NCBI RefSeq assembly: GCF_030064675.1
Contig: NZ_CP116413.1
Coordinates: 3,938,001-4,002,000, forward strand
DNA from: Crossiella sp. CA-258035
Lineage (GTDB): Bacteria; Actinomycetota; Actinomycetes; Mycobacteriales; Pseudonocardiaceae
Direction of reading: 5' to 3'
DNA length: 64,000 nt
Under the pieces are notes generated by a model. That model saw nothing but the letters and a program-made list of their open reading frames with translations. It was not told the DNA's origin and searched no databases. Below, in pieces: positions 5,848 through 29,043 of the stretch. How positions within the stretch are numbered: position 1 is the stretch's first letter; every line of letters begins with the position of its first letter. The position numbers and the translations under genes were made by a program.

Positions 5848-5865
5848 GGTGGTTGCCTTTCGGAC

Positions 5866-5903
5866 ACCGGCCCGCGCCCCCGGCGGCTGGGGCGCGAGCC
5901 GGT
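5866..5903 (-). terminator. Rho-independent-like hairpin after the AA10 gene
   Basis: Near-perfect inverted repeat with 15-nt arms (ACCGGCCCGCGCCCC at 5866-5880 and GGGGCGCGAGCCGGT at 5889-5903, one mismatch) around an 8-nt loop. It starts 6 bp downstream of the AA10 stop codon and separates that gene from the DUF305 gene on the same strand. No U-tract, as is usual in actinobacteria. Confidence 0.7.
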
Positions 5904-5908
5904 AGTGG

Positions 5909-6640: not shown

Positions 6641-6860
6641 GGGTCAGCTCCCTGCCGGGGTCGTCCCGGCGGCTGCGCCCGACGTCGTGCCCCGTCGCAC
6701 GCGATCAACAGGTGCCTGCGCCGGGCAGGGCCGGCGCTGCGGCGCGGGAGGCGCGGACACGCCGCCACCTCGCTCCGCTCACGCGCGTCACGTCGGCGAC
6801 CGGCGGGCCGGCTCCGTGGCACACGGACGAGGCGGCGGGTCCGAATGTCACACAGGGTAA

Positions 6861-6876
6861 GGTGGTCTAGACCATA
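6861..6876 (-). promoter_or_regulatory. DasR-type operator (dre-like site)
   Basis: GGTGGTCTAGACCATA contains the perfect 12-bp palindrome TGGTCTAGACCA (6863-6874), the core of the DasR responsive element described in Streptomyces (consensus close to A-C/G-TGGTCTAGACCA-G/C-T). DasR represses chitin and N-acetylglucosamine genes. The site lies 220 bp upstream of the AA10 start codon and just beyond the stop of the MFS gene, so it most likely serves the AA10 promoter. The 220-bp GC-rich leader between site and gene holds no other recognisable feature. Confidence 0.75.
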
Positions 6877-6896
6877 AGGTACCCGGGTTGTTCATG

Positions 6897-8078: not shown

Positions 8079-8094
8079 TGTGTAACGATACACA
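8079..8094. promoter_or_regulatory. Palindromic operator between MFS and LacI-type genes
   Basis: TGTGTAACGATACACA is an almost perfect 16-bp palindrome (only the central positions deviate) directly abutting the MFS start codon and 14 bp before the LacI-type ATG. Its position overlaps the likely start points of both genes, as expected for an operator bound by the adjacent LacI-family protein. Confidence 0.65.
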
Positions 8095-8108
8095 GATAGG
8101 CTGTGGGC

Positions 8109-9149
8109 ATGTCCAGTCCCGGATCACCGCGCGTCACCATGGCGGCGGTGGCGCGCCGCGCCGGTGTCTCGCCGATGACGGTGTCCTACTGCTACAGCCA
8201 GCCGGACCGGGTCGCCCCGGACACGCTGCGCCGGGTCCGCGAGGCCGCCGCCGAACTGGGCTACCAGGGACCGGACCCGACCGCGCGGTCGTTGCGCAAG
8301 CGGCACAACGACGCGATCGGGGTGGTGCTCGGCGAGCACCTCGCCTACGCCTTCGAGGATCCGCAGGCCCGCCGGTTCCTGACCGGGGTGGCCGAGGTGT
8401 GCCGCGAGCGCGGCAGCGGCCTGAACCTGATCCCGACCACCGGTGCGGACCAGGACGTCGAGCGGGTGCGCTCGGCCGCGGTCGACGGCTACATCGTGTG
8501 GACCACGGTCGAGGACGACCCGGTGCTGGAGGTGGTGCGCGGCCTGGGCAAACCGGTCGCCATCCACGGCGGCCCGGCGGTGCCCGGCGTCCAGGTGGTC
8601 GGCATCGACAACCGCGCCTCCGCCAGGGATATCGCCGCGCGCACCTTCGCCGGAGCCCAGCGCCCGGCCGTGCTCAGCTTCCCCTTCGACCGGGAACGCA
8701 GGCCACGGCTGGAAACCGGGCCGGACGCCGACCAGGTGCCGTTCCCGGTCACCCGCGAACGCCTCCAGGGCGTCTACGACCACTGCGCGCAGGCGGGTGT
8801 CGATCCCCGTGGCCTGCCGGTGGCCGTGGTGGCCCGCAACGACCGCGAGGAAGCCGCCGCCATGGCCGCCCTGCTCTTCGACTTCCGCACGCCGGACGCG
8901 GTGGTCGCGATGAGCGACCAGCTCGCCTTCGCGGTGCTCGACACCGCCCGCGCCCGCGGCCTCCGGGTGCCGGAGGACCTCGCGGTCTCCGGCTGGGACG
9001 ACGGCCCGGATGCCGAACGCGCCGGCCTGACCACCATCGCCCAGTCGCTGCTGGACCAGGGCAGGACCTGCGCGCTCATCGCGCTCGGCGACCGGGCGCC
9101 GGGCGGCAGCGCCGCGTGGACCACCCGGGTGCGCTCGAGCACCCGGTGA
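8109..9149 (+). CDS. LacI-family transcriptional regulator
   Basis: About 346 residues. N-terminal LacI helix-turn-helix (MAAVARRAGVSPMTVSYCY) and hinge region, then a periplasmic-binding-protein-like effector domain with the sugar-binding-type segments IGVVLGEHL and SGWDDGPDAERAGLTTI near the C-terminus. Cytoplasmic repressor, dimeric in the family. The ATG at 8109 is taken over a GTG at 8103. No Shine-Dalgarno is visible, so it may be leaderless. Divergent from the MFS gene, whose start abuts a 16-bp palindrome. Effector is unknown. Confidence 0.88.
   Translation: MSSPGSPRVTMAAVARRAGVSPMTVSYCYSQPDRVAPDTLRRVREAAAELGYQGPDPTARSLRKRHNDAIGVVLGEHLAYAFEDPQARRFLTGVAEVCRERGSGLNLIPTTGADQDVERVRSAAVDGYIVWTTVEDDPVLEVVRGLGKPVAIHGGPAVPGVQVVGIDNRASARDIAARTFAGAQRPAVLSFPFDRERRPRLETGPDADQVPFPVTRERLQGVYDHCAQAGVDPRGLPVAVVARNDREEAAAMAALLFDFRTPDAVVAMSDQLAFAVLDTARARGLRVPEDLAVSGWDDGPDAERAGLTTIAQSLLDQGRTCALIALGDRAPGGSAAWTTRVRSSTR
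9125..9146 (+). terminator. Hairpin overlapping the end of the LacI-type gene
   Basis: CCGGGTGC (9125-9132) and GCACCCGG (9139-9146) form an 8-bp stem with a 6-nt loop across the last codons of the regulator gene. It is compact and GC-rich and could end transcription before the esterase-like gene, which starts 34 bp later with its own AGGAGG. Confidence 0.4.
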
Positions 9150-9183: not shown

Positions 9184-10485
9184 ATGTCACAGGATGCCCA
9201 GGCCGAGCTGATCACCGCCTGGCTGGCCGAGCACGCCATCCCGCTGCGCACCGTCGAGCCCGGCAACGGTGTGGACGACCTGAAGCCGCTGGCCGAGGTG
9301 CTGGACGGGGTGCGCGTGGTCGGGCTGGGGGAGGCCACGCACGGCAGCAGGGAGTTCTTCACGCTCAAGCACCGGCTGGTCGAGTTCCTGGTGACCGAGC
9401 TGGGTTTCACCACCTTCGCCATCGAGGCCGGCTGGTCGGCCTGCCGCGCGGTGGACGACTACGTGGTGCACGGCACCGGAACCGCCGAGCTGGCCCTGCG
9501 CCAGGTCGGCTTCTGGACCTGGTACACCGAGGAAGTGCTGGCCCTGGTCGAATGGCTGCGCGCGCACAACACGGACCTGCCACTGGAGCAGCGGGTGCGC
9601 TTCCGCGGCGTCGATCCGGTGCTGGAGAAGGCGGGCGTCGAGGCCATCGGCGGCTATCTGTCCACAGTGGACACCGAGCGGGCGGCGGCGTTCCGGGCCG
9701 CGGCCAAGGCACTGCGCCCGGACGTCACCAAGATCAGCGTCGGCGGCGTGCTGCGCGCGGCGTTCCGGCACCTGTGGCGGCGGGTGCCGGGAGTGCGGGC
9801 CGCGGCCGAGCACAACGAGGTGCTCGCGGCCAGGGAGGTGGTGCGCGAGACGGTGACCTGGCTGGCCGGGCACCCGGCGCAGGACCCCGCCTGGCACGAG
9901 GCGCACTGGCACGCCTGGGCGGTGGACCGGGCCGCGGAGCTGCGCACCCTGCCCACCCTCGGCCAGGCGGGCGGTCACCTGCGCGACCGGATGATGGGCG
10001 CGGCGGTGAACCGCATCCTGGAGGAGCAGCCCGACGGCCGGGTGATGTTGTGGGCGCACAACGGACACCTCTCCGCCGCCACCCGCTCCAGCAAGGAGGC
10101 CGCGCTCGGCGCGGAGCTGCGGGACCGGCTCGGCGACGGCTACTACGCGCTGGCGCTGGTGGCCAACGAGGGCGGCTTCCAGGCCATCCAGATGGGCGGC
10201 ACCGAGCTGGCCGAGTTCGTCCTGGACCCGGCCGAGCCCGGCACCCTGGAATGGCAGCTGGCCAAGGTCGGCGGCGACCACCTGGTGGACCTGCGGCACG
10301 CGCGGCCGGACCCGGTGGCCAGGGAATGGCTGGCGGGCAAGCACAAGATGCGCGGCTACGGCTCGGTGGTCGGGTTCTGGAAGACGATGAAGAAGGAGTC
10401 GCTGACCTTCCGGCTGGGCGCGGAGTACGACGGCGTCGCCTACCTGGACCGCACCACTCGCGCCCAGCCGCTGAAACCGGGCTGA
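9184..10485 (+). CDS. Erythromycin-esterase family protein
   Basis: 433 residues. Member of the EreA/EreB-like superfamily (also called succinoglycan-biosynthesis/Ere-like), which includes macrolide lactone esterases. Characteristic segments are VGLGEATHGSREFF near residue 45 with the active-site His, FAIEAGWSACRAVDDYV near residue 80, and WAHNGHLS near residue 290. An AGGAGG sits 7 bp before the ATG at 9184; the longer GTG start at 9166 would overlap that site and is rejected. Actinomycete members are often not true resistance enzymes, so macrolide hydrolysis is only a possibility. Confidence 0.82.
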   Translation: MSQDAQAELITAWLAEHAIPLRTVEPGNGVDDLKPLAEVLDGVRVVGLGEATHGSREFFTLKHRLVEFLVTELGFTTFAIEAGWSACRAVDDYVVHGTGTAELALRQVGFWTWYTEEVLALVEWLRAHNTDLPLEQRVRFRGVDPVLEKAGVEAIGGYLSTVDTERAAAFRAAAKALRPDVTKISVGGVLRAAFRHLWRRVPGVRAAAEHNEVLAAREVVRETVTWLAGHPAQDPAWHEAHWHAWAVDRAAELRTLPTLGQAGGHLRDRMMGAAVNRILEEQPDGRVMLWAHNGHLSAATRSSKEAALGAELRDRLGDGYYALALVANEGGFQAIQMGGTELAEFVLDPAEPGTLEWQLAKVGGDHLVDLRHARPDPVAREWLAGKHKMRGYGSVVGFWKTMKKESLTFRLGAEYDGVAYLDRTTRAQPLKPG

Positions 10486-10486
10486 C

Positions 10487-12340
10487 TCAGCCCGCGCGCT
10501 GGATCAGCGTCGGATCCTCCAGCTCGGCCAGCGTCGCCGCGTACTCCTTGACCAGCTCGTGCAGCACGTACCGGCCGGGCGCGGACTCGGTGAGCAAGTG
10601 GTTGTCGTACAACAGTTCCAGCCCGCGCCGGGCCGCCGTGGCGGTCAACCCGGCCAGCGCCGCCGAGGTCGGCGGGTCGACCTCGACACCCGAGCACAGG
10701 CCGAGGCAGCGGAACAGCCGCTGGGTCTCCACCGGCAGGCCCTGGTAGGACAGCTCGAACGCGGCGGTGAGCGTGCGGTTCTCCGCGTGCAGCTCGCTCA
10801 GCCGGGTCCGCGCGGAGCTGAGCAGGTCCACCAGGTAGCGCTCGGTCCAGCGCGGGTGGTGCCGCAACCGACCGGCCAGCAACGTGATCGCCAGCGGCAG
10901 ACCGCCGCACAGCGCCACCAGCTCGGTGACCGCCGCCGGGTCCACCGGCTGCTCGCGCGGACCGGCCAGCCGCTGGAACAGCCGGGCGGCCTGTTCCAGC
11001 GGCAGCGGGTTCAGCTCCAGCGACCGCACGCCCTCCAGCGCGCTCAGCCGCCGTCTGCTGGTGATCAGCACCCGGCACCGGCCGGGTCCCGGCAGCAGCG
11101 GCCGGACCTGCTCGTGCCCGGCGGCGTCGTCCAGGATGAGCAGCAACCGCTTGTCCCGCAAGCGTTCCCGCCACAGCGCGGCGCGGGCGTGCTCGGTCTC
11201 CGGCAGCGCGGCGGCCGGCACACCGACCGCGAGCAGCAGCGCGGCCAGCGCCTGGTACGGCGGCAGCGGCGGCTGCGCGGCGGCGAAGGCGTTGAGGCGC
11301 AGGAAGATCCGGCCGTCCGGGTAGTCGGTGGCGAGCAGGTGCGCGGCCTGCACGGCCAGGGTGGTCTTGCCGATCCCGGGCATCCCGTCCACCACGTGCA
11401 CCACCGCGGCCACCGACGGTTCGGTGAGCCGCCGCAGCTCGTCCTCCCTTCCGCTGCAGGACAACGAATCCGCGGGTAGCTGCTCCACGGTCACCGCGGG
11501 CGCGAGCACCACCGGCGGACCGGCCAGCCGCGGCGGCGCGGACAGTTCCGGATCCCTGGTCAGGATGCGCTGGTGCAGCCCGCGCATGGCCGGGCCAGGG
11601 TCGATGCCCAGCTGTTCGGCCAGCACCGCGCGGGCGTCCTGGAACACCCCGAGCGCCTCGGCCTGCCTGCCCGAGCGGTACAGCGCGAGCATCAGCAGCT
11701 CCCGCAACCGTTCCCGCAGCGGGTGCCGGGTCACCAGTGCGGTCAGCTCGGCCACCGCCGTGCGGTGCTCGCCGCGGTCCAGCGCCAGCGCCGCGGACAG
11801 CTCCTGGGCCAGCAGGTGGCACTCGCGCAACCGCAGCCGGTGCGCGTGCAGGTACGCGCTGTCCAGGCCGCTGAACGGCTCCCCGCGCCAGCGCCGCAGC
11901 GCCGAGCCCACCGACTCGGCGGCCGCCCGCCACTGCCCGGCCCGCTGGTGCTCCTGGGCCGCGGCCACCTCCTGCTCGAAGACCAGCGCGTCCAGCTGGT
12001 CGGGCTCCCCGCGCAGCAGGTAGCCGGCCTCGGTGCGCACCACCACCGCGTCCCGGTCATCGGTGGCCCCGGGCGGCCGCAGCGCGCGGCGCAGCCTGCT
12101 GATGTTGGTCTGCACCGTGTTCCGCGCGCCCTGCGGCGGGTTGTCCGCCCACACCGCCTCGATCAGCGCCTCCACCGGCACCGGCTGGTTCATTCGAGTG
12201 AGCAGAACAGCCAGCACTGCCTGTTGCCGCGCCCAGCCCAGCTCGATCCGCACCGGACCGCGGCGCGCGGCCAGCGCCCCGAGTACCTCGCAGTAAAGCC
12301 TGTCGTCGTGTTTGAGCACGTCAAACCCCCAATTAGGCAT
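10487..12340 (-). CDS. SARP/AfsR-type activator with NB-ARC domain
   Basis: About 617 residues. Order: OmpR-type winged helix (around residues 10-85, with ARQQAVLAVLL and ISRLRRAL), bacterial transcriptional activator domain (about 95-245, FSGLDSAYLHAHRLRL), then an NB-ARC ATPase with Walker A DGMPGIGKTTLA, Walker B RLLLILDDAA, and the GLPLAI motif, ending in a winged helix (HELVKEYA). The C-terminal TPR region found in AfsR is absent. SARP proteins are cluster-situated activators of secondary metabolism in actinomycetes. It is divergent from the lanthipeptide precursor gene and is the likely pathway activator. The ATG at 12340 is chosen; GTG at about 12319 is an alternative. Confidence 0.88.
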   Translation of the reverse strand: MPNWGFDVLKHDDRLYCEVLGALAARRGPVRIELGWARQQAVLAVLLTRMNQPVPVEALIEAVWADNPPQGARNTVQTNISRLRRALRPPGATDDRDAVVVRTEAGYLLRGEPDQLDALVFEQEVAAAQEHQRAGQWRAAAESVGSALRRWRGEPFSGLDSAYLHAHRLRLRECHLLAQELSAALALDRGEHRTAVAELTALVTRHPLRERLRELLMLALYRSGRQAEALGVFQDARAVLAEQLGIDPGPAMRGLHQRILTRDPELSAPPRLAGPPVVLAPAVTVEQLPADSLSCSGREDELRRLTEPSVAAVVHVVDGMPGIGKTTLAVQAAHLLATDYPDGRIFLRLNAFAAAQPPLPPYQALAALLLAVGVPAAALPETEHARAALWRERLRDKRLLLILDDAAGHEQVRPLLPGPGRCRVLITSRRRLSALEGVRSLELNPLPLEQAARLFQRLAGPREQPVDPAAVTELVALCGGLPLAITLLAGRLRHHPRWTERYLVDLLSSARTRLSELHAENRTLTAAFELSYQGLPVETQRLFRCLGLCSGVEVDPPTSAALAGLTATAARRGLELLYDNHLLTESAPGRYVLHELVKEYAATLAELEDPTLIQRAG

Positions 12341-12400
12341 CGGAGAAGGACACCTTAACCCGCGGACGGTGTGTTCGGAACTACTCACAGTAAGAGCTTG

Positions 12401-12434
12401 TTGACATGCGACTGCAATCCTGTGACAGCGCTGT
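12401..12434 (+). promoter_or_regulatory. lanA: Candidate lanA promoter with internal palindrome
   Basis: TTGACA at 12401-12406 is a good -35 hexamer; no strong -10 follows at the usual distance, which is common for promoters that need an activator. A perfect 10-bp palindrome ACAGCGCTGT lies at 12425-12434. The element is between the divergent SARP gene and the precursor gene. No clear SARP-type direct repeat was found. Confidence 0.4.
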
Positions 12435-12510
12435 GTACGCGGCCCCGCCTAGGGTCCGAAGTGAGCGCGAGAAAATCGCGCAGCACAATCACAGAAAGGT
12501 GAAATGTCAA

Positions 12511-12690
12511 ATGGACGCTTTTGATCTGGACGCCAGGGTCAGCACTCCGGCGGCGAGCAACGGCCAGGCGCAGCCGCTGTCGATTACCAGTGTGATCACC
12601 CGCCTGGCGTGCACCAGGACCCCGCTCTGCTCCGGCTTCACCTGCCGCTGCACCCAGGGCGCGTGCACCGCCGGCTGCCCCAAGCGGTAA
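12511..12690 (+). CDS. lanA: Class I lanthipeptide precursor peptide
   Basis: 59 residues. The leader starts MDAFDLDARVS, containing the FDLD version of the F-N/D-L-D box that binds LanB and LanC in nisin and epidermin leaders. The C-terminal part from ITSV onward is about 35 residues with six Cys and nine Ser/Thr (C-rich blocks LACTRTPLC, SGFTCRC, TQGAC, TAGC, ending PKR). ITSV at the likely core start recalls nisin and planosporicin. The ring-like spacings T-x3-C, T-x2-C, S-x3-C, T-x2-C, T-x3-C, T-x2-C could give up to six lanthionine rings. The AAAGGTGA motif 10 bp upstream supports the ATG at 12511. The cleavage site is not certain: no protease gene is present. Not a sequence I recognise as a described lantibiotic. 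Confidence 0.88.
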   Translation: MDAFDLDARVSTPAASNGQAQPLSITSVITRLACTRTPLCSGFTCRCTQGACTAGCPKR

Positions 12691-12714
12691 GTACCCGCAG
12701 CTAGTCGGGCTGAA

Positions 12715-12755
12715 GGCGGGTGCTGCCGTGTGTCGACGACACGGCAGCACCCGCC
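12715..12755 (+). terminator. Strong hairpin between lanA and lanC (attenuator-like)
   Basis: Perfect 17-bp stem (arms 12715-12731 and 12739-12755) with a 7-nt loop GTCGACG, 25 bp after the precursor stop and 41 bp before lanC. Lanthipeptide operons commonly carry such a partial terminator or RNA stabiliser here, giving far more precursor transcript than enzyme transcript. Confidence 0.85.
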
Positions 12756-12795
12756 GCTCAACCTACCGCATCAGTGCAGAGGAACAGGGGTTGTC

Positions 12796-14163
12796 ATGCG
12801 CGCAGAAACAGTGGCCAGGGAATCCGCGACAGCCTGGCACGGAGTAGTCCCCGCGGCGCTTGCGGCCAAAGCCCGCGAAGTGGCCTGGGAGGTCGCGCGG
12901 AGAACCGCGGATTCCGCCGAGGTCATCGATCATGTCATGCGATTCACCGAGCAGACGATGCATCCGATGGAATGGTACTTACCCAGCTTCGGGTATGGCC
13001 ACGCCGGAATCGCACTACTCCATGTGCACGCCGCGGCCGTTGCCCCCAATGAGGTAGAGAGCGCGCGTTCCCTCTCGGCGGGGTTCTCTTTCATCCGCGA
13101 GGCGGTGGCGGGCACCCAGGTCCAACCGCTATTGGCGCCGGGCGTGTTCTCCGGCACCGGCGGCCTCGGGCTGTGCGTGGCGGGCTGTGTCGAAGCCGAA
13201 CCCCGGTTCGCGCCCAGCCTTCGCCGCCTGCACGAGCAGTTCGCCGCCCAGGTCGCCGAACTGGACCTGCCCATGGCCGAACGCGAGGTCAGCGACTCCG
13301 ACTACGACCTGATCACCGGCGCCGCGGGCACCCTGGCCTACCTCTGCTCGATCCCGGACCCCGACGAGTCGCTGCGCGCCGCCGCCCAGCGCCTGCTGGA
13401 CTACCTCATCTGGCTCAGCGAGCCACCCCGCGACCTCACCATCACCCGCCGCTGGCTGATCTCCCCGGAGCTGTGCGCGCCACTGGGCCGCGACCCCAGG
13501 GAGTTCCCCGGCGGCTACCTCAACCTCGGCCTCTCCCACGGCATCCCCGGCGCGGTCGCCGCACTGGCCGTGGCCCGGCTGCGCGGGCACCGGCGGCCCG
13601 GACAGGTGGCGGCCATCCGGCGAATGGTGGACTGGCTCCTCGATGTCCGGCGCGCGGACGAGCACGGTCCGGTGTGGGCCACCGAGATCCCGGTGGCCGG
13701 CTCCGGCGAGGAGGTCCGGCCGAACCAGCCCAACGACCAGATCGGCTGGTGCTACGGCACCGCCGGGGTCGCGGTGTCCCTGCTCGCCGCGAGCGAGGCG
13801 CTGGGCGACGCCGAGCTGCGGGCCGCGGCCTTCGAGGCGTTCGAGGGCGTGCTGCGGCGCAGCGAGGAGCGGCCCGCGCTCTCGCCCACCTTCTGCCACG
13901 GCGTGGCCGGGGTGCTGGCCATCTGCCTGGAGTTCGCCGCCGCGGGCAGCGAAGCGGCCCGCGAGCACACCCCGCGGCTGCTCGCCGAGCTGCTCGCGCA
14001 CGCCGATCCCGCGCACCCGCTGGTCTTCCGCGACCAGGAGGAGCCGGGGCTGTTCGTGGACTGCCCAGGACTGCTCACCGGCTCGACCGGGGTGGCGCTG
14101 ACCCTGCTCGCCGCGATCAGCCCGGCCCGCCCCACCTGGCTGACCGCGTTCCTGGCACGGTGA
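12796..14163 (+). CDS. lanC: Lanthipeptide cyclase LanC
   Basis: 455 residues, slightly longer than nisin NisC. Zinc-dependent cyclase that adds Cys thiols to dehydrated residues to form (methyl)lanthionine rings. The alpha-barrel signature motifs are seen: GYGHAGIALL and GTGGLGL in the first half, SHGIPGAVAAL, and the zinc ligands Cys319 (GWCYGTAG) and Cys367-His368 (TFCHGVAG), with a C-terminal GLLTGSTGVALTLL. The ATG at 12796 follows a GAGGAACAGGGG purine-rich stretch. It lies between lanA and lanB and ends 2 bp before the lanB ATG, so translation is probably coupled. Confidence 0.95.
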   Translation: MRAETVARESATAWHGVVPAALAAKAREVAWEVARRTADSAEVIDHVMRFTEQTMHPMEWYLPSFGYGHAGIALLHVHAAAVAPNEVESARSLSAGFSFIREAVAGTQVQPLLAPGVFSGTGGLGLCVAGCVEAEPRFAPSLRRLHEQFAAQVAELDLPMAEREVSDSDYDLITGAAGTLAYLCSIPDPDESLRAAAQRLLDYLIWLSEPPRDLTITRRWLISPELCAPLGRDPREFPGGYLNLGLSHGIPGAVAALAVARLRGHRRPGQVAAIRRMVDWLLDVRRADEHGPVWATEIPVAGSGEEVRPNQPNDQIGWCYGTAGVAVSLLAASEALGDAELRAAAFEAFEGVLRRSEERPALSPTFCHGVAGVLAICLEFAAAGSEAAREHTPRLLAELLAHADPAHPLVFRDQEEPGLFVDCPGLLTGSTGVALTLLAAISPARPTWLTAFLAR

Positions 14164-14165
14164 GC

Positions 14166-17100
14166 ATGACCCGCTACGAACCCGCCGACTTCTTCCTGCT
14201 GCGCGCCCCAGCGTTGCCGGCCAGGGTCTTCCAGGACCTGCTCGCCATCGACGATCCGGACCAGGCCCGCGCCGAAGTGCACGGCCGCCTGCGCGCACTG
14301 GCCACGCGACCGGAGGTGCGCCGGGCGCTCGCGGTGGCCAGCGGCGACCTGGTCGACGCCCTGGACCGCCCGGCCCCCAACGGAAAGCGGGCCCGGCGGC
14401 TGCACTCCCGGCTGCTGCGCTACCTCACCAGGATGACCACCCGGCCCACCCCCTTCGGCGCGTTCTCCGGTGTCGCGGTCGGCGAGTTCGGCGCGCAGAC
14501 CACCGCGCGGCTGGGCGTACCGGCCTTGCGGGACAACCGGATCCGCGCGGACATGGCCTGGCTGCTGACCGTGGTCAAGCAGCTGGAGGAGGACGAGGCG
14601 CTGCGCCCGCACCTGCGGGTGGTGCTCAATTCCAGCGTGCACCACAGCGGCGACCGCCTGGTGCTGCCCTACGCCGACATCTACGGCCACAACGACAACC
14701 GCGCGGTCCGGGTGCGGGCCACCACCGCCGCGCTCGCGGTGACCAGGCTGACCGCCACCCCGATCCCGTACGGGCAGCTGCTCACCGCGCTGGCCGAGGA
14801 GTTCCCCGGCGTCGACCCGGCCAGGGTCGCCGGGCTGGTGGACGAGCTGCGCACGCTGAACTTCCTGACCAGCGACCTGCGCCCGCCGCTGACCGTGGCC
14901 CACCCGGAGGCCCACCTGGCCAAGGCACTGGCCGGGATCGAGGCCGCGGCCGGCACCGCCGAGGCGCTGCGCGAGGTCATCGACCTGGCCCACCACGCGG
15001 CCACCAGCGCGGACCCCGCCACGCTGGCCGCGCTGACCGCCGCCCAGCGCGCGCTCGCGCCCGAGCACACCGGCCCGACCTACCAGCTGGACGCCACCCT
15101 CGACCTGCGCGAACCGGGACTCTCCGCCGAGGTCGGCACCGCGGTGGCCGAGGCGGTGGACTGCCTGATGCGCCTGTCCGCCGCGCTGCCAGGGCACAAC
15201 CACCACCTCGCCCAGTACCGGGACGCCTTCACCGAACGCTACGGGCTGCTCGCACTGGTGCCGGTGCTGGAGCTGCTCAGCCCGGAGCACGGCCTGGACG
15301 CGCCACCCACCTACACCGAGCCGCCGCGCACATATCCGTTGCCGCACAACGTCGGCGAGCCCTGGCAGCAGGACTTCGACCGGGTGCTCACCGAGTTCGC
15401 GGTGCAGGCCTGGTGCTCCGGCGAACCCGAGGTCGAGCTGACCGACGAGTGGCTGAACCGCTTCGCCCCACCGGAGGACGCGCCGTCGCTGGCGCTGTAC
15501 CCGGCGCTGGACGTCTACGCCCAGCTCGCCGCCGACCACTCGGCGGGGGAGTGGCGGGCGGTGCTGCGCGAGGAGGGCCTGGCCTTCGGCGGGCGCACCT
15601 CGGGCCGGTTCTTCGACCTGCTCGGCGAGGCGGCGGTGGACCGGCTGCGCGGCTACGCCCGCCGCGAGGAGGAGCTCAGCCCCGAGGTGGTCTACGCCGA
15701 GCTGTGCTACCTGCCCAACCACGGCCGGGCGGCCAACGTGGCGCTGCGGCCGCTGCTGCGCGGCTACGAGGTCCCGGTCAACACCGCGCCCTCGGTGCCG
15801 CCGGAGCGGGTGATCGACCTGGCCGACCTGTGCGTCGGCGCCACCGAGGACCGCCTGTTCCTGTGGTCCAAGCGGCTGGGCAAGCAGGTGGTGGTCTCGC
15901 AGAACCACATGCTCAGCCCGCACGTGGCTCCCAACGTGGCCCGGTTCGTGCTGGAGGTCTCCAACGACGGCTACGTCATGCCCTGCGGGTTCCGCTGGGG
16001 ACCACTGGACACGATGCCCTTCCTGCCCAGGGTCACCCGAGGCAAGGTCGTGCTGCGCCCGGCCCAGTGGCGGCTGAACTCATTGCCCGGCAAGGACTTC
16101 GCCGCCGAGGTCCGCGCCTGGCGGGAGCAGTGGCGGGTGCCCAGGCACGTCTACCTGGTGGAGGCGGACAACCGGCTGCTGCTCGACCTGGACCACCCGG
16201 TCTGCCTGGACGAGCTGGCCACCGGGCTCAACCGCGGCCCGGTGACCGTGCACGAGATGCTGCCCGCCTTCGACCAGCAGTGGCTGCGCGACAACGACGG
16301 CGCGGCCTACCTGGAGGAGATCGTGGTCCCGCTGCTGGCCCGCAGCGGCGCGGACACCGCGCGCAGCGAGGTCACGCTGTCCGCGCCGGTGGACACCGAG
16401 GACGCTCCGGCGCGGCTGCACCTGCCCGGCGGTCAGTGGAGCTTCCTCAAGCTGTACACCGGAATGACCCAGCAGGACGAGATCATCAGCACCGGCCTGC
16501 GCGAGCTAGTCGCGGTGCTGGGTGAGCAGGGGCTGATCGACCGCTGGTTCTACATCCGTTACATGGACCCGCGCCCGCACCTGCGACTGCGCTTCCGGGC
16601 CGCGCACCCCGAGGCCGAACCCGCCCTGCTGTGGCAGCTCACCGTGTGGGGCAAGCAGATGGTCGAGCAGGGTCTTGCCTTCGACACCGCGCTCGCGGGC
16701 TATGCCCCGGAGATCGAGCGCTACGGCGGCCCGCTGGTCTACGACACGGTGGAACAGGTCTTCGCCGCCAACAGCGCGGTCACCGCCGACCTGGTTGCCT
16801 TGTTGCACAACGACAGCGACCTGCGCCCCGACTTCGCCGCGATCGCCGCGGTGGACACCCTGTACCGGCAGTGGGGCCTCGAACCGAAGGAACGCATGGA
16901 ACTGCTGCCCGGCAGCGGCGGCGCGGACGCCGACCTCGTGCGCGCCGAGTTCCAGCAGCACCGCGCCTACCTCACCGAACTGCTCGTCCCGTGGGACTTC
17001 CGCCCGCACGAACAGGGCAGACAGCACCACCAGCTGATCGCTGAAGTCCTTGCTGCGCAACGTGAAGCGGTTGCCGCGGCGCAGGCGGCGGTGACCGGCG

Positions 17101-17264
17101 GGCAGCTGTGGGGCACCGAGGCCGGGGTGCTGGGCAGCCTGGCGCACATGCAGATCAACCGGTTGCTGCCGATCGACCTGCGCCGCGAATCGCACCTCTA
17201 CGCGCTGTGGCGGCAGGCTCTGCGCGCCATCGGCGGCCGACCCGCACCGGAGGCCACGGCATGA
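14166..17264 (+). CDS. lanB: Lanthipeptide dehydratase LanB, full length
   Basis: 1032 residues, the size of a complete class I dehydratase. The N-terminal glutamylation domain uses glutamyl-tRNA to activate Ser/Thr (segments RMTTRPTPFGAFSGV near residue 95 and LPNHGRAANVALRP near 515), and the C-terminal elimination (SpaB_C) domain starts near residue 755 with WSFLKLYTGMTQQDEI and contains WFYIRYMDPRPHLRLRF. Both halves are fused, as in NisB and MibB, rather than split as in thiopeptides. An in-frame GTG at 14160 is an alternative start. It overlaps lanT by ATGA. The much longer upstream frame running through lanC is a shadow. Confidence 0.95.
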   Translation: MTRYEPADFFLLRAPALPARVFQDLLAIDDPDQARAEVHGRLRALATRPEVRRALAVASGDLVDALDRPAPNGKRARRLHSRLLRYLTRMTTRPTPFGAFSGVAVGEFGAQTTARLGVPALRDNRIRADMAWLLTVVKQLEEDEALRPHLRVVLNSSVHHSGDRLVLPYADIYGHNDNRAVRVRATTAALAVTRLTATPIPYGQLLTALAEEFPGVDPARVAGLVDELRTLNFLTSDLRPPLTVAHPEAHLAKALAGIEAAAGTAEALREVIDLAHHAATSADPATLAALTAAQRALAPEHTGPTYQLDATLDLREPGLSAEVGTAVAEAVDCLMRLSAALPGHNHHLAQYRDAFTERYGLLALVPVLELLSPEHGLDAPPTYTEPPRTYPLPHNVGEPWQQDFDRVLTEFAVQAWCSGEPEVELTDEWLNRFAPPEDAPSLALYPALDVYAQLAADHSAGEWRAVLREEGLAFGGRTSGRFFDLLGEAAVDRLRGYARREEELSPEVVYAELCYLPNHGRAANVALRPLLRGYEVPVNTAPSVPPERVIDLADLCVGATEDRLFLWSKRLGKQVVVSQNHMLSPHVAPNVARFVLEVSNDGYVMPCGFRWGPLDTMPFLPRVTRGKVVLRPAQWRLNSLPGKDFAAEVRAWREQWRVPRHVYLVEADNRLLLDLDHPVCLDELATGLNRGPVTVHEMLPAFDQQWLRDNDGAAYLEEIVVPLLARSGADTARSEVTLSAPVDTEDAPARLHLPGGQWSFLKLYTGMTQQDEIISTGLRELVAVLGEQGLIDRWFYIRYMDPRPHLRLRFRAAHPEAEPALLWQLTVWGKQMVEQGLAFDTALAGYAPEIERYGGPLVYDTVEQVFAANSAVTADLVALLHNDSDLRPDFAAIAAVDTLYRQWGLEPKERMELLPGSGGADADLVRAEFQQHRAYLTELLVPWDFRPHEQGRQHHQLIAEVLAAQREAVAAAQAAVTGGQLWGTEAGVLGSLAHMQINRLLPIDLRRESHLYALWRQALRAIGGRPAPEATA

Positions 17265-19057
17265 AACCGAACAACCACTGGCTGCGGATCGCCAAGATGC
17301 TCTGGGACCTCAGCCCATTGCGTGTGCTGGCGTTGATCCTGGTCACCGTCGCGGTCTCGGTGGTGCCCGCGATCCAGTTGCAGCTCACCGCCACCGCGGT
17401 GCAGACCGTGGCCGAGGCGATCGCCGCGCGGGGCCAGGGCGACTTCGGTCCCGCGGTGCTCGCGGTCGGCCTGCTCATCCTGGCCGTCTCGGTGGCCGCG
17501 CACCTGCTCGGCGTGTGGCACGGCTACCTGGACTCGGTGCTGCGCCTGCACTTGTCCACCGCGGTCGGCGAGGAGGTGATGCGCAAGGGCACCAGGATGG
17601 AGCTCCAGGACTACGAGGACGCCGACTCCTACGACAAGCTGCAACGCGCCTTCCAGGAGAGCAGCGGCACCCGGATCCACCAGCTGTTCACCGACACCCT
17701 GGCCTTCGCCCGCGAGCTGATCACCATCCTGTCCGTCTCCGCGGTGCTGTTCTCCTGGAACTTCTGGGTCGCGGTGCTCATCCTGATCTCGCCGATCCCG
17801 TCCGCGATCGCGCAGATGTGGTACGGCAAGAAGATGTACGAGATCGAGTACGGCCGGGCCGCCGATCGTCGTCGCCTGTTCTACCTCCAGTACCTGACCA
17901 CCACCGACCACTCCTTCAAGGAGGTCCGCCTCTTCCAGCTGGATGGCCACCTGATCAAGGCCTACCGCGACCAGGTGCAGCGGTTCCTGCGGGTGGACCG
18001 GGACATCACCCGCCGCCAGTCCGTCTCGCTCGGCGTCTTCGGCCTGGTGAGCGTGCTGATCTCGGCCGGAGCGCTGGTGTTCGCGATGCTGGCCACCAAG
18101 GACACCGGGCAGATCGGCGAGCTGGCCGGGTACCTGCAGGCGATCGGCATCGTGCAGGCATCGGGGCACACCCTGCTGGTCGGCGTGGCCAACCTGTTCG
18201 AGAACAAGCTGTTCGTGAGCAACTTGTTCGAGCTGCTCGACCTGCCCGAGCGGCAGATCCGGGGCGGGCAACGGAAGTTCCCGGAGCGGCTGCGCCAGGG
18301 CATCGAGTTCCGCGAGGTCAGCTTCACCTACCCCGGCACCAGCGAACAGGTCCTGGACCGGGTCAGCTTCACCATGCCCGCCGGCAACTGCGTGGCCCTG
18401 GTCGGCCAGAACGGCGCGGGCAAGACCACCCTGGTCAAGCTGCTCACCCGGCTCTACGAGCCCACCAGCGGGGAGATCCTGCTCGACGGCGTGCCGATCC
18501 AGGAGTTCGACCTGGAAGACCTGCGCCGCAACCTCGGCGTCATCTTCCAGGACTACATCCGCTACGAGCTGCCGGTGCGGGACAACATCGGCTTCGGCCA
18601 GATCGAGCACCGCGCCGACACCGACCGGATCCGCCGCGCCGCACAGGCCAGTGGCGCTGACTCCATTGTGGACACTCTCCCAGCAGGCTACGACGCCATG
18701 CTGGGCCGCCACTTCGAGAACGGCCACCAGCTCTCCGGCGGCCAGTGGCAGAAGGTCGCACTGGCCAGGGCGTTCATGCGGGCCGCGCCGATCGTGGTGC
18801 TGGACGAGCCCACCGCCTCCATCGACGCCGAGGCCGAAACCGAGATCTTCCAACGCTTCCGCAGCATCGCCGACACCTCCACCAGCCTGCTGGTGGCTCA
18901 CCGCTTCTCCACCGTCCGGATCGCCGACAAGATCATCGTCATCGAGGGCGGCAAACTCGTCGAACAGGGCACGCACACCGAACTGATGCGCCAGGGCGGC
19001 CACTACGCCTACCTGTTCAACCTCCAGGCCGCCGGATACCAGCCGGAGCACACGTGA
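17261..19057 (+). CDS. lanT: ABC transporter, LanT-like exporter
   Basis: 598 residues: an N-terminal membrane domain with about five to six hydrophobic segments (17-330) and a C-terminal nucleotide-binding domain with Walker A GQNGAGKTTL, signature LSGGQWQKVALARA, Walker B IVVLDEPTAS and the H-loop VAHRFST. Half-transporter that works as a homodimer to export the modified peptide. It lacks the N-terminal C39 peptidase found in class II LanT proteins, so it does not remove the leader itself. Starts inside the lanB stop (ATGA overlap) and its own stop overlaps the GTG of the next gene. Confidence 0.92.
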   Translation: MKPNNHWLRIAKMLWDLSPLRVLALILVTVAVSVVPAIQLQLTATAVQTVAEAIAARGQGDFGPAVLAVGLLILAVSVAAHLLGVWHGYLDSVLRLHLSTAVGEEVMRKGTRMELQDYEDADSYDKLQRAFQESSGTRIHQLFTDTLAFARELITILSVSAVLFSWNFWVAVLILISPIPSAIAQMWYGKKMYEIEYGRAADRRRLFYLQYLTTTDHSFKEVRLFQLDGHLIKAYRDQVQRFLRVDRDITRRQSVSLGVFGLVSVLISAGALVFAMLATKDTGQIGELAGYLQAIGIVQASGHTLLVGVANLFENKLFVSNLFELLDLPERQIRGGQRKFPERLRQGIEFREVSFTYPGTSEQVLDRVSFTMPAGNCVALVGQNGAGKTTLVKLLTRLYEPTSGEILLDGVPIQEFDLEDLRRNLGVIFQDYIRYELPVRDNIGFGQIEHRADTDRIRRAAQASGADSIVDTLPAGYDAMLGRHFENGHQLSGGQWQKVALARAFMRAAPIVVLDEPTASIDAEAETEIFQRFRSIADTSTSLLVAHRFSTVRIADKIIVIEGGKLVEQGTHTELMRQGGHYAYLFNLQAAGYQPEHT

Positions 19058-20049
19058 GAACCTCCATCATCCTGCCGGTGATGCCGGAACAGCCCGACGA
19101 CCTCACCCCCTTCGCCGAGCTCGTCCGCGACACCCCCGCACACCGCCTGTGGCAGGGCCAGTCCCTGGGACTGGAAACCCACCAGGCCTTCGCCTACCTG
19201 GCGGGCCAAGGGTTCCAGCTGCCGGTCGGCACCAGCGTCACCCTCACCGCCCTGCGCCACCCCTACGAAGCCGCCCTGCAAGCCCGCTCCCTGGCCCGCC
19301 TCACCGGCCATCCCATGGTGCTCGGCATCGGCGCGGGCACCCCGGAACTCGTGGAGTCCTTGCACGGCAAGGCATACCCGAGCCCGCTGACCGCGCTGGC
19401 CGACTACCTCACCATCCTGCGCGGCCTGCTGGCCGGCGATCCCGTGCTCCACCAAGGCCGCCAGTACCAGATGCACGGCGGCCTGCCCCCCTTCGAGCAC
19501 CCGCCGGTGGAGCTCGGCCTCGGCGTCCTGCGCCCCGCCGCCGCCCGCCTGGCAGGTGAGCTGGCCGACTCCGCGATCACCTGGATGACCCCGCCGGACT
19601 ACCTGCGCACCGTGCTCCGCCCGGAAATCGAGGCCGCCGCGGCACAAGCCGGTCGCCCCGCGCCCAGGATCGTCACGGTGGTGCACGTCGCGGTCCGCCG
19701 ACCGGGCCGCAACCCGCACCAGGTGGCGCTCACCGCCGCCCGGGAACACCTGGCCGCCCCGCACTACACCGACATGCTCCGCCGCGCGGGCCTGCGCGTG
19801 CACCCCATGCAGCCGGGCCTGAGCGCGCGGGCGCTGGTCGACGGCGGCGTGGTGCTCACCGGCACCCTGTCCGAGATCGCGGCCGGGGTGCGGCGCTACC
19901 ACGAGGCCGGGGCAGACGAGGTGGTACTGAACACCGCGGGCGTGCGCATGCTGGAAGGCCGGGAGGCCGCACTCAGGGACCTGCGGGCGATTCTGGCGGA
20001 GGTGACCACGTCGGATTCTCGCCAGCCAACCGACGCCGGGCTTGCCTAG
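19054..20049 (+). CDS. Luciferase-like F420-type oxidoreductase, candidate LanJ reductase
   Basis: 331 residues. Luciferase-like monooxygenase fold (LLM), the TIM-barrel family that uses F420 or FMN. Visible family segments are TSVTLTALRHPYEAALQARSL near the N-terminus, MVLGIGAGTPEL, LADYLTILRGLLAG with VLHQGRQYQM, and LGVLRPAAARLAGELADSAITW. Its GTG overlaps the lanT stop (GTGA), so it belongs to the lanthipeptide operon. In other lanthipeptide clusters LLM-type F420H2-dependent enzymes (LanJC group, for example in lexapeptide biosynthesis) reduce dehydroalanine to D-Ala. That role is inferred here from context; another tailoring oxidation is possible. Confidence 0.75.
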   Translation: MRTSIILPVMPEQPDDLTPFAELVRDTPAHRLWQGQSLGLETHQAFAYLAGQGFQLPVGTSVTLTALRHPYEAALQARSLARLTGHPMVLGIGAGTPELVESLHGKAYPSPLTALADYLTILRGLLAGDPVLHQGRQYQMHGGLPPFEHPPVELGLGVLRPAAARLAGELADSAITWMTPPDYLRTVLRPEIEAAAAQAGRPAPRIVTVVHVAVRRPGRNPHQVALTAAREHLAAPHYTDMLRRAGLRVHPMQPGLSARALVDGGVVLTGTLSEIAAGVRRYHEAGADEVVLNTAGVRMLEGREAALRDLRAILAEVTTSDSRQPTDAGLA

Positions 20050-20059
20050 CCTCACCGAC

Positions 20060-20476
20060 ATGAGTGCCGAGATCGTCCAACAGGCCTGGCAGACCTTCCG
20101 GACCCGCGACCCCGAACGCATCGCCGCGGTCTTCACCCCGGACGCGGAATGGCTTGCCCCACCAGGAAACGCGACCGCGACCACCCTGGGCATCAGTCAC
20201 CACATGATCGGCGGGGAGGAGATCGCGCGCTTCCTCGCCATCGACTTCCCCCGGCTGTTCGCCAAGGATGTCGAGGTGGCCTTCCGCGGCTTCCACGTCG
20301 CGGGTGACGTGGTGGTCGTGGAGGAGACGATGACCGCCACCCTGGCCGACGGCAGGCCCTACCGCAACGACTACTGCCTGGTCTTCGAGGTCCACAATGG
20401 ACTCATCCACCGGGTGCGCGAGTACCTGGACACCGCCAGCGGCGCCCGCCAGCTCGGCGTCCCGGCTACGACGTAA
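20060..20476 (+). CDS. SnoaL-like / NTF2-fold protein
   Basis: 138 residues. Small alpha+beta barrel of the SnoaL/NTF2 superfamily (pattern WQTFRTRDPERIAAVFTPDAEW, later YRNDYCLVFEVHNGLIHRVREYLD, which is typical of ketosteroid-isomerase-like proteins). Members are cyclases, isomerases or hydratases, many uncharacterised. Starts 10 bp after the reductase stop on the same strand, so it may be co-transcribed with the lanthipeptide operon, but it is also a common stand-alone gene. No signal peptide. Confidence 0.75.
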   Translation: MSAEIVQQAWQTFRTRDPERIAAVFTPDAEWLAPPGNATATTLGISHHMIGGEEIARFLAIDFPRLFAKDVEVAFRGFHVAGDVVVVEETMTATLADGRPYRNDYCLVFEVHNGLIHRVREYLDTASGARQLGVPATT

Positions 20477-24026: not shown

Positions 24027-26153
24027 GTGGAATCCGATACCCCCCACATGCACGACCACACCGGCCACCCCGCGCCCCCGACGCATCGCGGTGGCCGACC
24101 GGTGCGCACCGAGCAGGCGATGCTGAAGAACGGCTGCACCCCGGAGGCCGTCGCCCTGATCCGCATGCTTCAGGACCTGCTGACCGAGCGGTTCGGCGAG
24201 GGCCGCCCGTACCGGAACTTCATCGAGCACATGGCCGACACCCGCCCTGAGATCCTGGGGATCACCGTGCCGAAGGGTCCCCCCGACAAACGCAAGAACG
24301 CGATCGACAACGTCCTCAAGAAGTTGTCGGACGGACTTGGTAGCGGACGAATGCGACATGGTCCGGACTGGGCTACGGCGCGGCTGATCGTGGGCTACTG
24401 CGTCGCCCCCGACGAACGCGAGCAGGTGAAGCGCGAGGTCAGGACCTTGTGGGAGGCGGCGAACCGGCAGGCCACGTCCGGGCAGACCCGGTCGAATCGC
24501 GCTGCCCAGCCCCCGGAGGCGCCCGTTCTCGGGCCGCGCGCCGAGAACACCGCGGAGCTGCTCTCGGCGCTGCGGCAGGAGCTCACCTCTGAACGGGACC
24601 GCCGGATCACCGCCGAGAAACTTCTCACCATGCAGCGGGCAACCTGCGTGGAAGTCCGGGCTGAGCGGGACCGCCTCGCCGAGGAGGTCCGGCAGCACAA
24701 GGAGAACCGCGGCCGTCTAGAGGCCGAGATTGCCCTGCAGCGGGCCAAGCGCGGCGGAATCACGCAGGAACTGGAGCGGGCCAACGCGCACAAGGCAGGC
24801 CTGATCGAGGTGTTCGCCCGCCAGGCCGCGGTCCTGCAGAAACTTCGGCCGCGCGAGCCGGGTGACCGGTTCCTGGCGCCGACCCTGGACTTCCCGAGCG
24901 AGCCGGAACACGGCGTCGGCGGCGGACTGACCGGATTGGAGGAGCTGGTCCCCAAGGTGGTGGCCGACATCATCGAGGACTTGGACTGCGAGGCGCCGGT
25001 CGGCAACCAGGTCATCGCGGTCTACCTGGGCGTCTGCGCCCGCCTCCGGGGCCAGCACCCGCACGAGCAACCCGCGCTGCTCGGCGTGGACCCGGCCACC
25101 GTGGACGCCGTGCTCAGCGGCCGCCATTGCCCCGACCGGCGGGTCGCCGCCGCACTGGCCTGGGCATACGGCGCGGATCCCGACCATGCGGGCGCGCTGG
25201 CCGCCGCGGCGGGAGTGCCCGCGACCGGGGCTGCCGACCGGCGGACCGCCCCACCGGCTGCAGCCCCGGCACCTCCGGCCGGGGCGGGGCAGCCGGATCC
25301 GGAACCGGCAGGTGGACCGGCCGGGCCGATCATCAGCTTGGCTGAGCACCGGTGGAGCCGACAACGCAGAACAAGCTCGCGGACAAGCCCCGACAACCCA
25401 GGTCAGCCCAGCTCCGACAGCGCCGCTCCAGGCGACAACGGCGAAGGCCCGCCGCACCGGCCGGGCCCCCGGTTGGTTGTCGGACCGCCGAACCCGAACC
25501 GGTCCGCCGCCGGTACGTTCAAGCGCGGGCTGCGCCGGTTCTACCACCTGCTGGGCATCGCCCTCCTGCTCTGCTTGCCCGCCCAGTTCCTGCTCAACGA
25601 GCCGCTCCGTCTCCTCTGCGCGGCCATCACCGGGGCGTGGGTGGTGCTGCTGGCCATCAGCGCGGTGCGGGTGTACCTGACCGCGCCCCGGGCGTTGCCG
25701 ATCCATCCGAGCGAGGGCACCCCGCCCGCCAGGACCGGCGCGGACCTGGAGTGGCCGCTGTCCGCGGGAGACTCGGCCGAGACGACCTTCCAGGTGCGGC
25801 CCGGCCGGCGCGGCGGCTACTTGTCGGGACAACTTCACCTTGTCGGTAGCGGCACCGCCACCGTGATCTGGTCGCTTACCGCCGCCGACGGACGGGTCCT
25901 GGCCGACGGCGAGATCAACAGCGGGGGCCCGTGCCGGATCATCAGCTACGCACCGGACGGGGAGAACCGGGTGATCCCGGGCAACGCCCTTGAACTGCAG
26001 CACCTGGGCATCCCAGCGGACCTGACCACGCTGACCCTGACCCTGCGCCGGGTGGACCGCGGCCGGGAGCCGTCCGCCGTGTGCTGGGCCGACGCGTACC
26101 TGTTCGAAGCGGCCCCGACAACCTCCGACAACCCGGCGGAGGAAGCCGGCTGA
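24027..26153 (+). CDS. Coiled-coil membrane protein with N-terminal helical domain, unknown function
   Basis: Up to 708 residues. About residues 25-150 form a helical globular domain (FGEGRPYRNFIEHMADTRP, KNAIDNVLKKLSDGL) like the DNA-binding or regulator N-termini seen in actinomycete proteins; 165-275 is a long charged coiled coil (ELLSALRQELTSERDRRITA); 310-395 is a second helical unit (VSGRH-like block with ALAWAYGADPDHAGAL resembling a lambda-repressor-type helix set); 400-490 is Pro/Ser-rich; 500-545 contains two membrane helices (LLGIALLLCLPAQFLL and ITGAWVVLLAISAVRVYL); and the C-terminal 150 residues look like an extracytoplasmic beta-sandwich. GTG at 24027 or ATG at 24048 may be the start. 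No named family recognised. Confidence 0.7.
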   Translation: MESDTPHMHDHTGHPAPPTHRGGRPVRTEQAMLKNGCTPEAVALIRMLQDLLTERFGEGRPYRNFIEHMADTRPEILGITVPKGPPDKRKNAIDNVLKKLSDGLGSGRMRHGPDWATARLIVGYCVAPDEREQVKREVRTLWEAANRQATSGQTRSNRAAQPPEAPVLGPRAENTAELLSALRQELTSERDRRITAEKLLTMQRATCVEVRAERDRLAEEVRQHKENRGRLEAEIALQRAKRGGITQELERANAHKAGLIEVFARQAAVLQKLRPREPGDRFLAPTLDFPSEPEHGVGGGLTGLEELVPKVVADIIEDLDCEAPVGNQVIAVYLGVCARLRGQHPHEQPALLGVDPATVDAVLSGRHCPDRRVAAALAWAYGADPDHAGALAAAAGVPATGAADRRTAPPAAAPAPPAGAGQPDPEPAGGPAGPIISLAEHRWSRQRRTSSRTSPDNPGQPSSDSAAPGDNGEGPPHRPGPRLVVGPPNPNRSAAGTFKRGLRRFYHLLGIALLLCLPAQFLLNEPLRLLCAAITGAWVVLLAISAVRVYLTAPRALPIHPSEGTPPARTGADLEWPLSAGDSAETTFQVRPGRRGGYLSGQLHLVGSGTATVIWSLTAADGRVLADGEINSGGPCRIISYAPDGENRVIPGNALELQHLGIPADLTTLTLTLRRVDRGREPSAVCWADAYLFEAAPTTSDNPAEEAG

Positions 26154-27376: not shown

Positions 27377-28162
27377 ATGAACATTCGACTGCTGAGACGC
27401 GTCGTGGTGCTTGCGGCGGCGGGTGTGCTCACCTTGACTGGGATCGCGGTGGGTGCGGAACCGCTTGCCGCGCAACGCTCCGCCGCTGCTCGACCGGCCA
27501 CTGTGGACACTCAGTCGGCGCTGGTCGGCCCCAACCGGACCGTCGGGGTGCTCTACATCCTGCGCCCCGACGGATCGGCCCAGTCCTCCTGCACGGCGGC
27601 CACCGTGCCGAGCGCGACCCGGAGCCTGATCGTCACGGCGGCGCACTGCCTGGCGCCGGGCGGCACCGGCGGCTACTACCACAGCTTCGAGTTCCTGCCC
27701 GGGTTCTCCCCGGACCAGCCCCGTCCGTTCGGCACCTTCAAAAGCATCCGGCCCTCGGTGGCGCCCGCGTGGCTGCACAACCGGGACTATGCCTTCGACG
27801 TCGGCTTCCTTTCGGTGCAGCGCAACGAGTTCGGGCAGCGGCTCGGTGACGTGGTCGGTGAGAACGGGTTCCAGGCCAACCAGCCGGTCAGCGCGCCCCG
27901 CACCGTGTGGGGCTACCAGGACGGTTTCGTCCAGCAGTCCTGCTTCGGCCAGACCTACTCCTACGACGCCACCCGGATCGCGGTCGGCTGCCGCTACGAC
28001 CGCGGCGCCAGCGGCGGCCCGTGGCTGCGCGACTACAACGCGACCAGCCAGCTGGGTCATGTCAACGGCGTGAACAGCCAGTCAGGCAACGGCTTCGCCA
28101 CCTCGTCCTACTTCGGCGGCGCGATCTGGAACCTGTACCAGGAAAGGGCCAACGGGTCCTGA
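27377..28162 (+). CDS. Secreted trypsin-like serine protease
   Basis: 261 residues. Signal peptide (LLRRVVVLAAAGVLTLTGIA) and short propeptide-like region, then a chymotrypsin-fold domain of the V8/glutamyl-endopeptidase-like group. The triad is seen as His90 (LIVTAAHCLAP), Asp141 (DYAFDVGFLSV) and Ser212 (RGASGGPWLRDY), with Cys pairs near residues 72/91 and 189/205. Start at ATG 27377; an in-frame GTG/ATG at 27317 would put a polar extension before the signal peptide. Acts outside the cell. Confidence 0.9.
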   Translation: MNIRLLRRVVVLAAAGVLTLTGIAVGAEPLAAQRSAAARPATVDTQSALVGPNRTVGVLYILRPDGSAQSSCTAATVPSATRSLIVTAAHCLAPGGTGGYYHSFEFLPGFSPDQPRPFGTFKSIRPSVAPAWLHNRDYAFDVGFLSVQRNEFGQRLGDVVGENGFQANQPVSAPRTVWGYQDGFVQQSCFGQTYSYDATRIAVGCRYDRGASGGPWLRDYNATSQLGHVNGVNSQSGNGFATSSYFGGAIWNLYQERANGS

Positions 28163-28236: not shown

Positions 28237-29043
28237 ATGAGCGGTTGGCGGCGGATGCTGGTCATCTTCCCGGTGGTGTCGCTCGGTTGCGCGGCCATGG
28301 CGCTGGCCTCCGGGCTGGTGCCGTGGCCGCAGGCGTGGGCGCTGCTGCTGGCGGCGGAGGGGCCACATCTTGGGCTGGTCGTGGGCACCGTGGTGTACGC
28401 GACGGTGGTCTCAGTTCGCCGGTGGCGGGCCGGGCAGCGGTGGTGGCCTGCGTTCCGGTGTTCCTGCTACCAGGTCCTGCCTGCGCCGGTTGCCTGGGCG
28501 ATCACCCGGGAACTGGCGAGCCTGGTTGCGGTGGGCGCGCTGCTGCGGTGGCGTCGGTCGGCGGGTGACCACGGTGGCGGGCGGGGCCGGGTGTTCGCGG
28601 TTGTCCTGGCGGCCATCGTGGTCGAGCTGGTGGTGCTGCACCAGGTGATCCCCTGGCCGGTGGTGCGGCTGGTCCACGACGTGGTGGGCGGCTACTCGCT
28701 GATCATCGTGCTCGGCTACTGGGCGGTGCCGCTGACCCGCCCGCACCAGGTGTTGCCGGACCGGCTGGTGCTGTGGTCCGGACCGGAACTCGTCGCGGAG
28801 CTGCCCCGGCGTGGAATCACGGTGGCACGACGCGTACCGCGGAAGCGCCGGGCGGCGCTGAACGAGGACGGGTGGCTGGTGCTGCCCAACGGCCGGGGCT
28901 TGACCAACCTGGTCATCCAGCCGGAGCAGCCGGTGCGTGCCAGGCTGGACGGACGGACCGGTTGGGTGCACTGCGTCGAGCTGGGACTCGACGATCCGGC
29001 CGCGTTCCGCGCCGCGCTGGAGGGGGAGAATGCTGATCGGTGA
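28237..29043 (+). CDS. Multi-pass membrane protein of unknown function
   Basis: 268 residues. Four to five hydrophobic segments in the first 165 residues (LVIFPVVSLGCAAMALASG, LGLVVGTVVYATVVSV, VFAVVLAAIVVELVVLHQV, YSLIIVLGYWAVPL), followed by a roughly 100-residue soluble C-terminal domain (DGWLVLPNGRGLTNLVI). It recalls uncharacterised actinobacterial proteins linked to MerR regulators. Start codon is only a few bases from the expected transcription start, so leaderless translation is likely. It overlaps the MerR gene by 14 bp. Confidence 0.75.
   Translation: MSGWRRMLVIFPVVSLGCAAMALASGLVPWPQAWALLLAAEGPHLGLVVGTVVYATVVSVRRWRAGQRWWPAFRCSCYQVLPAPVAWAITRELASLVAVGALLRWRRSAGDHGGGRGRVFAVVLAAIVVELVVLHQVIPWPVVRLVHDVVGGYSLIIVLGYWAVPLTRPHQVLPDRLVLWSGPELVAELPRRGITVARRVPRKRRAALNEDGWLVLPNGRGLTNLVIQPEQPVRARLDGRTGWVHCVELGLDDPAAFRAALEGENADR

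Follow-up and report, generated by a model that had tools for sequence, protein, structure and literature searches.

The LLM-fold, luciferase-like protein encoded directly behind the exporter gene of a Crossiella sp. CA-258035 lanthipeptide cluster probably serves this class I peptide as a dedicated LanJC-type reductase that acts on Dha/Dhb with F420H2. The cluster lies in a 64,000-nucleotide stretch of DNA (the window), which covers positions 3938001-4002000 of a single-contig genome of 9.17 Mb. The linkage of the protein's relatives to RiPP clusters, the overlap of its gene with lanT and its co-inheritance with LanB support a peptide-tailoring role and, together with tree placement, the LanJ-type reading proposed in the initial annotation. 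We infer the cofactor, reaction, timing and site as follows. LanB would glutamylate Ser and Thr residues of LanA, and elimination would then yield Dha and Dhb; LanC would close the thioether rings. The F420H2-bound LLM protein would transfer hydride stereospecifically to a dehydro residue outside the rings, so that each site gains 2 Da and becomes D-Ala or D-Abu, and LanT would export the peptide.

The operon runs in the order lanA, lanC, lanB, lanT and LLM gene, all on the forward strand. The precursor gene lanA (12511..12690) matches the NF038155 model of FDLD family class I lanthipeptides with 31.2 bits against a cut-off of 20. As a genome survey, the same model matched only the window's own genome among 394, and it is too short for surveying. 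The cyclase gene lanC (12796..14163; PF05147, 139 bits) was given a start picked by eye at about 12796, within an open frame that extends back to 12730. It is followed by lanB (14166..17264), encoding a full-length class I dehydratase of 1032 residues (PF04738, 530 bits; PF14028, 171 bits). The separate LanB, with glutamylation and elimination domains, and LanC define the cluster as class I. Four-base overlaps join lanB to lanT (17261..19057), which encodes an ABC exporter of 598 residues, and lanT to the LLM gene (19054..20049), whose 331-residue product is assigned as a candidate LanJC-type reductase from PF00296, clade placement and predicted fold. Divergent from lanA is the gene of a SARP/AfsR-type protein (10487..12388, reverse strand), the probable cluster regulator; an erythromycin-esterase family protein (PF05139) is encoded next to it at 9184-10485. 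A SnoaL-like protein, identified by Pfam, is encoded 10 bases downstream of the LLM gene (20060..20476, forward strand). Since tblastn finds such a gene in only three (L001, L002 and L127) of nine further distinct class I loci of Crossiella, we regard it as accessory and outside the operon core; tblastn found none at the Streptomyces coeruleorubidus locus L037. Farther downstream, three predicted genes (24048-26153, 27503-28162 and 28255-29043; 701, 219 and 262 residues) have no Pfam match at 1e-4; interspersed with or close to them are genes for a GSHPx homolog, a TetR regulator and a TauD-family protein. The closest named locus belongs to Crossiella sp. SN42 (L001), with 96% identity between the LLM proteins. 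SN42 carries three class I LanB-LanC-LanT-LLM clusters (L001, L003 and L004).

With the cut placed provisionally after QPLS, the predicted LanA core is ITSVITRLACTRTPLCSGFTCRCTQGACTAGCPKR. It contains nine Ser/Thr and six Cys residues, leaving three residues spare if every Cys is in a ring; a lanB in the operon and this surplus of three in the predicted core form the context of a LanJC-type enzyme. Across nine distinct precursors, Ser/Thr in the core outnumber Cys by 3 to 7. For cores of the window type (window, L002, L130 and L003), ring A is best drawn as Thr6-Cys10; Thr2 (Ser2 in L003), Ser3 and position 11 then stay free, and ring spacing thus suggests that Ser3 of the window core is available. 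The initial annotation had named this leftover Ser3 as the substrate, and the proposal holds for the window-type cores only in the sense that Ser3 is spare there. L004, L005, L126 and L128 have three residues fewer ahead of ring A, and their Ser3 stands four positions before Cys7. Ring A of nisin is built from a Ser four positions ahead of a Cys, and by analogy the Ser at position 3 probably closes ring A in these four precursors. On this reading of the rings, Ser3 cannot be the site common to all precursors. A spare Ser equivalent to it is missing from half of the Crossiella precursors compared, which weakens Ser3 as a conserved site, and no reduced site is obviously conserved across the precursors compared. 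The L037 core has spare Thr2, Ser4 and Thr7 within a hydrophobic stretch.

Passages of PMC13348032 report that the fitness of MaeJC and WmnJC is driven by hydrophobic residues at positions -2 to +2 of Dha, and that MaeJC prefers Ala, Phe, Ile or Val at -1. Ser3 in ITSVI and Ser4 in TVSIV (L037) fit this preference, so we prefer the spare N-terminal residues over position 11. By this comparison, spare Thr2/Ser3 of the hydrophobic N-terminal ITSVI would be the likeliest reduced sites in the window peptide, with Thr11 as the alternative. A LanJC enzyme acting at a site other than Ser3, for example on Thr11 between rings A and B with conversion of its Dhb to D-Abu, is a tentative second choice. 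A C-[TS]-[RK]-T-P-[LVI]-C motif places a Ser/Thr between these rings in all eight Crossiella precursors, window Thr11 being equivalent to Ser8 in subgroup B, and D-Abu is the product of MatR1, a role established by knockout. The hydrophobic preference of MaeJC and WmnJC, however, suits ITSVI better than ACTRT.

The LLM gene is an intact open frame with a GTG start and a TAG stop, and the TGA stop of lanT sits within its GTGA start. The coupling to lanT recorded in the initial annotation is thus borne out. All 10 other class I loci examined, among them L037, show coupled lanT/LLM frames (nine as 4-base ATGA/GTGA overlaps, L128 as TGATG), which makes a chance overlap unlikely. NG86 dN/dS values of ~0.2-0.4 against L002, L003, L126 and L130 indicate that the gene is under constraint. 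The protein scores 103.6 bits against PF00296 (cut-off 27.9) and so has the LLM fold. Its top NCBIfam model is TIGR03564, the MSMEG_4879 F420-dependent LLM family, yet the score of 139.8 bits lies under the 234.25-bit cut-off and leaves it outside that family; identity to TIGR03564-model proteins reaches at most ~35% by blastp. Twenty-eight window residues are kept in at least 90% of RiPP-linked rows and in at most 15% of TIGR03564-model rows. Because the list was built from window residues, the window protein necessarily has all 28; that of S. coeruleorubidus has 27.

The phylogenetic check against LanJC-type and general LLM enzymes had been set beforehand, and it places the window protein inside a RiPP-linked, LanJC-type clade rather than with catabolic LLMs. 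In a first quick tree, built from 90 relatives, the window protein and 25 further LLM proteins encoded in the same genome, the RiPP-linked proteins make up one side of a branch with support 99. The second quick tree combines the window protein with 48 of 91 relatives (hand-thinned, giving 49 RiPP-linked rows), 28 TIGR03564-model proteins (26 over the model cut-off and two below) and the 25 own-genome proteins. Here the RiPP-linked clade, window included, has support 100 (branch length 0.96) and stands apart from 27 TIGR03564-model rows and the 25 own-genome rows; 27 of the 28 TIGR03564-model rows form a separate clade, also with support 100. On these trees we reject a catabolic origin. The RiPP clade takes in LLMs of class V, class II, daptide and class I clusters. 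A more careful tree was computed from the window protein, 43 of 91 relatives and four TIGR03564 rows, again thinned by hand. The Crossiella class I LLMs form one group within the RiPP clade (support 100 in the quick trees and 78/100 in the careful tree), and positions inside the clade are weakly resolved. L064, a 12-residue fragment, was omitted from the trees. The TIGR03564 set excludes L270 (misread, 12 residues) and L273 (split), and the own-genome outgroup excludes L191 and L192, which are the genome's two class I LLM genes. The trees were built without LxmJ, for which the nearest stand-in is the S. kebangsaanensis gene L047; from the species name only, we take its cluster to be keb.

The AlphaFold model of the LLM protein (pLDDT 94.1) ranks F420 enzymes first among PDB structures, and they fill all of the first ten Foldseek rows. 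In VIA-align, F420-dependent enzymes (Mer, alcohol dehydrogenase and FGD) take the first 15 places with Z-scores of 32.7-28.0, and the first flavin monooxygenase appears at 27.6, a narrow gap from the lowest of these F420 entries (28.0). The VIA-align list holds no RiPP enzyme and is uninformative on RiPP likeness. The closest sequence matches of the protein are also F420 enzymes, and the genome encodes a cofE-family protein (277 bits), which accounts for one step of F420 synthesis. GarO of actagardine, likewise an LLM-fold protein of a lanthipeptide cluster, is a luciferase-like monooxygenase that makes a sulfoxide. We consider it improbable that the window protein, although it has the same Pfam fold, is a GarO-like lanthionine sulfur oxidase using FMN and oxygen, as its nearest structures and sequence matches are F420 enzymes and it lies inside a clade whose studied members reduce Dha/Dhb. 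GarO itself is absent from the tree, none of the four genomes searched having yielded its sequence. A passage of PMC7268733 does mention oxidation of lanthionine sulfur by an enzyme of a flavoprotein family.

The gene neighborhoods of LLM relatives point in the same direction as the LanJC-type reading. Scanning genome contigs with the window LLM protein alone gave 69 relatives, 58 of which lie in recognized RiPP neighborhoods next to LanB/C, LanM, HopA1 (class V), daptide or CypD-type genes. Neighborhoods were typed by tblastn with reference genes, and the tally covers those 69 of 91 distinct sequences that come from loci found by LLM similarity only: six class I, one class II, 29 class V, 17 daptide, five with CypD only and 11 unrecognized. 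Among the 29 class V neighborhoods, 24 have CypD, two lack it and three carry daptide genes. The 11 unrecognized cases include the fragment L064 and L062, which has full flanks without a recognized RiPP gene; most of the others have flanks cut by a contig end. The daptide label denotes a PF00202 aminotransferase plus Fe-ADH; most of these loci also encode small precursors with a C-terminal Thr. Regions L146-L165 were retrieved via HopA1 and are class V by construction; 11 of these 20 contain an LLM relative.

Several individual loci extend the range of contexts. At L144 (genome G119, same family as the window), a LanJC-clade LLM gene (9498-10439) adjoins genes (10448-17765) for a nitroreductase, a YcaO protein and a LanB split into PF04738 and PF14028 parts; this is a thiopeptide-like cluster, and LanJC may serve that class too. 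At L145 (genome G074), the LLM gene (9501-10397) adjoins a RamC/LanC-like, class III-type synthetase gene (5655-8213). L017, L043, L054 and L137 combine an LLM gene with HopA1 and daptide aminotransferase/Fe-ADH genes and are apparent class V-daptide hybrids. Crossiella class V (HopA1) clusters L129 and L135 (genomes G215 and G218) carry a different LLM with 52% identity, so the reductase clade is paired with two lanthipeptide classes within this genus.

The cluster resembles FDLD class I (nisin-like LanBC) clusters in its NF038155 precursor, LanB, LanC and LanT, but differs from them in its LLM gene. We searched the window LanB against 384 class-level genomes, 28 of which had a match at 1e-60 or better, and compared 20 LanB regions, excluding the two of the window's genome. 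None of these 20 other actinobacterial loci has an LLM relative within ~7 kb or to the contig end (tblastn, E 1e-4), and 19 have a LanC match. In the LanB tree, the seven LLM-bearing LanBs (six from Crossiella, window included, and that of S. coeruleorubidus) form one clade with support 100, with the 20 others outside. Co-inheritance of LLM and LanB thus spans two families, and this single clade and the recurrent lanT overlap show the LLM gene behaving as part of its LanB lineage. Two separate class I recruitments were considered because both quick and careful trees place the L037 LLM near a class II relative. The AU test does not reject a single class I clade (p-AU 0.348). Given also that the LanBs group together, a single old association is no less likely. 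The window's genome contains another class I LanB-LanC-LanT-LLM cluster, a divergent one (L126, G000:C1:5303526-5323467), its LLM being 71% identical. That an ordinary housekeeping or catabolic enzyme adjoins lanT by chance is conceivable in a genome with 27 PF00296 matches, but tree placement, the overlap in 10 of 10 loci and LanB co-inheritance in two families make this a very remote prospect.

The reported LanJC members are LxmJ of lexapeptide (Xu 2020), Cao12 and KinJ (proposed), MatR1/MatR2, the birimositide LLM and the daptide sca LanJC. A section of PMC8068269 assigns LxmJ and Cao12 to the TIGR03564 family, and excerpts of PMC10036551 describe a daptide cluster with a LanKC/LanJC pair that makes D-Ala, five Ser being turned into Ala. 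The window system is like these in its LLM fold, its F420-type relatives, its RiPP cluster with dehydrated Ser/Thr and its membership in one clade with class V, class II and daptide LLMs. It differs in that the known systems are class V, class II or daptide, whereas the window has a full-length glutamyl-type LanB plus LanC and a candidate reductase. In part of its text, Walker 2020 (PMC7268733) states that D-amino acids had been seen only in class II and suggests their presence in class I as possible; according to a 2024 statement (PMC11519912), the lanthipeptides with LanJ-made D-amino acids are primarily those of class II and one of class V. Searches of open-licence PMC papers turned up no class I lanthipeptide reported to carry a LanJC product. 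PMC7794033 counts 124 of 462 sprOR orthologs as neighbors of canonical lanthipeptide clusters; some of those 124 may be class I, and genomic co-occurrence alone may already stand in its supplementary table. PMC9415966 describes class I and V clusters of cave Crossiella without products, and its text contains no mention of LLM, F420 or luciferase.

On balance we favor the view that, in a class I lineage common to Crossiella and a Streptomyces, the LanB-LanC-LanT unit has inherited an F420H2-dependent reductase as one of its core components. This would be the first class I system with enzymatic D-amino acids, with LanJC working behind glutamyl-tRNA-type dehydration. If true, LanJC-type D-amino acid chemistry would extend to nisin-type peptides, and the suggestion of Walker 2020 could be tested directly on a class I family that has its own LanJC. 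The family is also a possible source of a reductase adapted to nisin-type peptides, and it shows a single reductase clade paired with several different dehydration chemistries.
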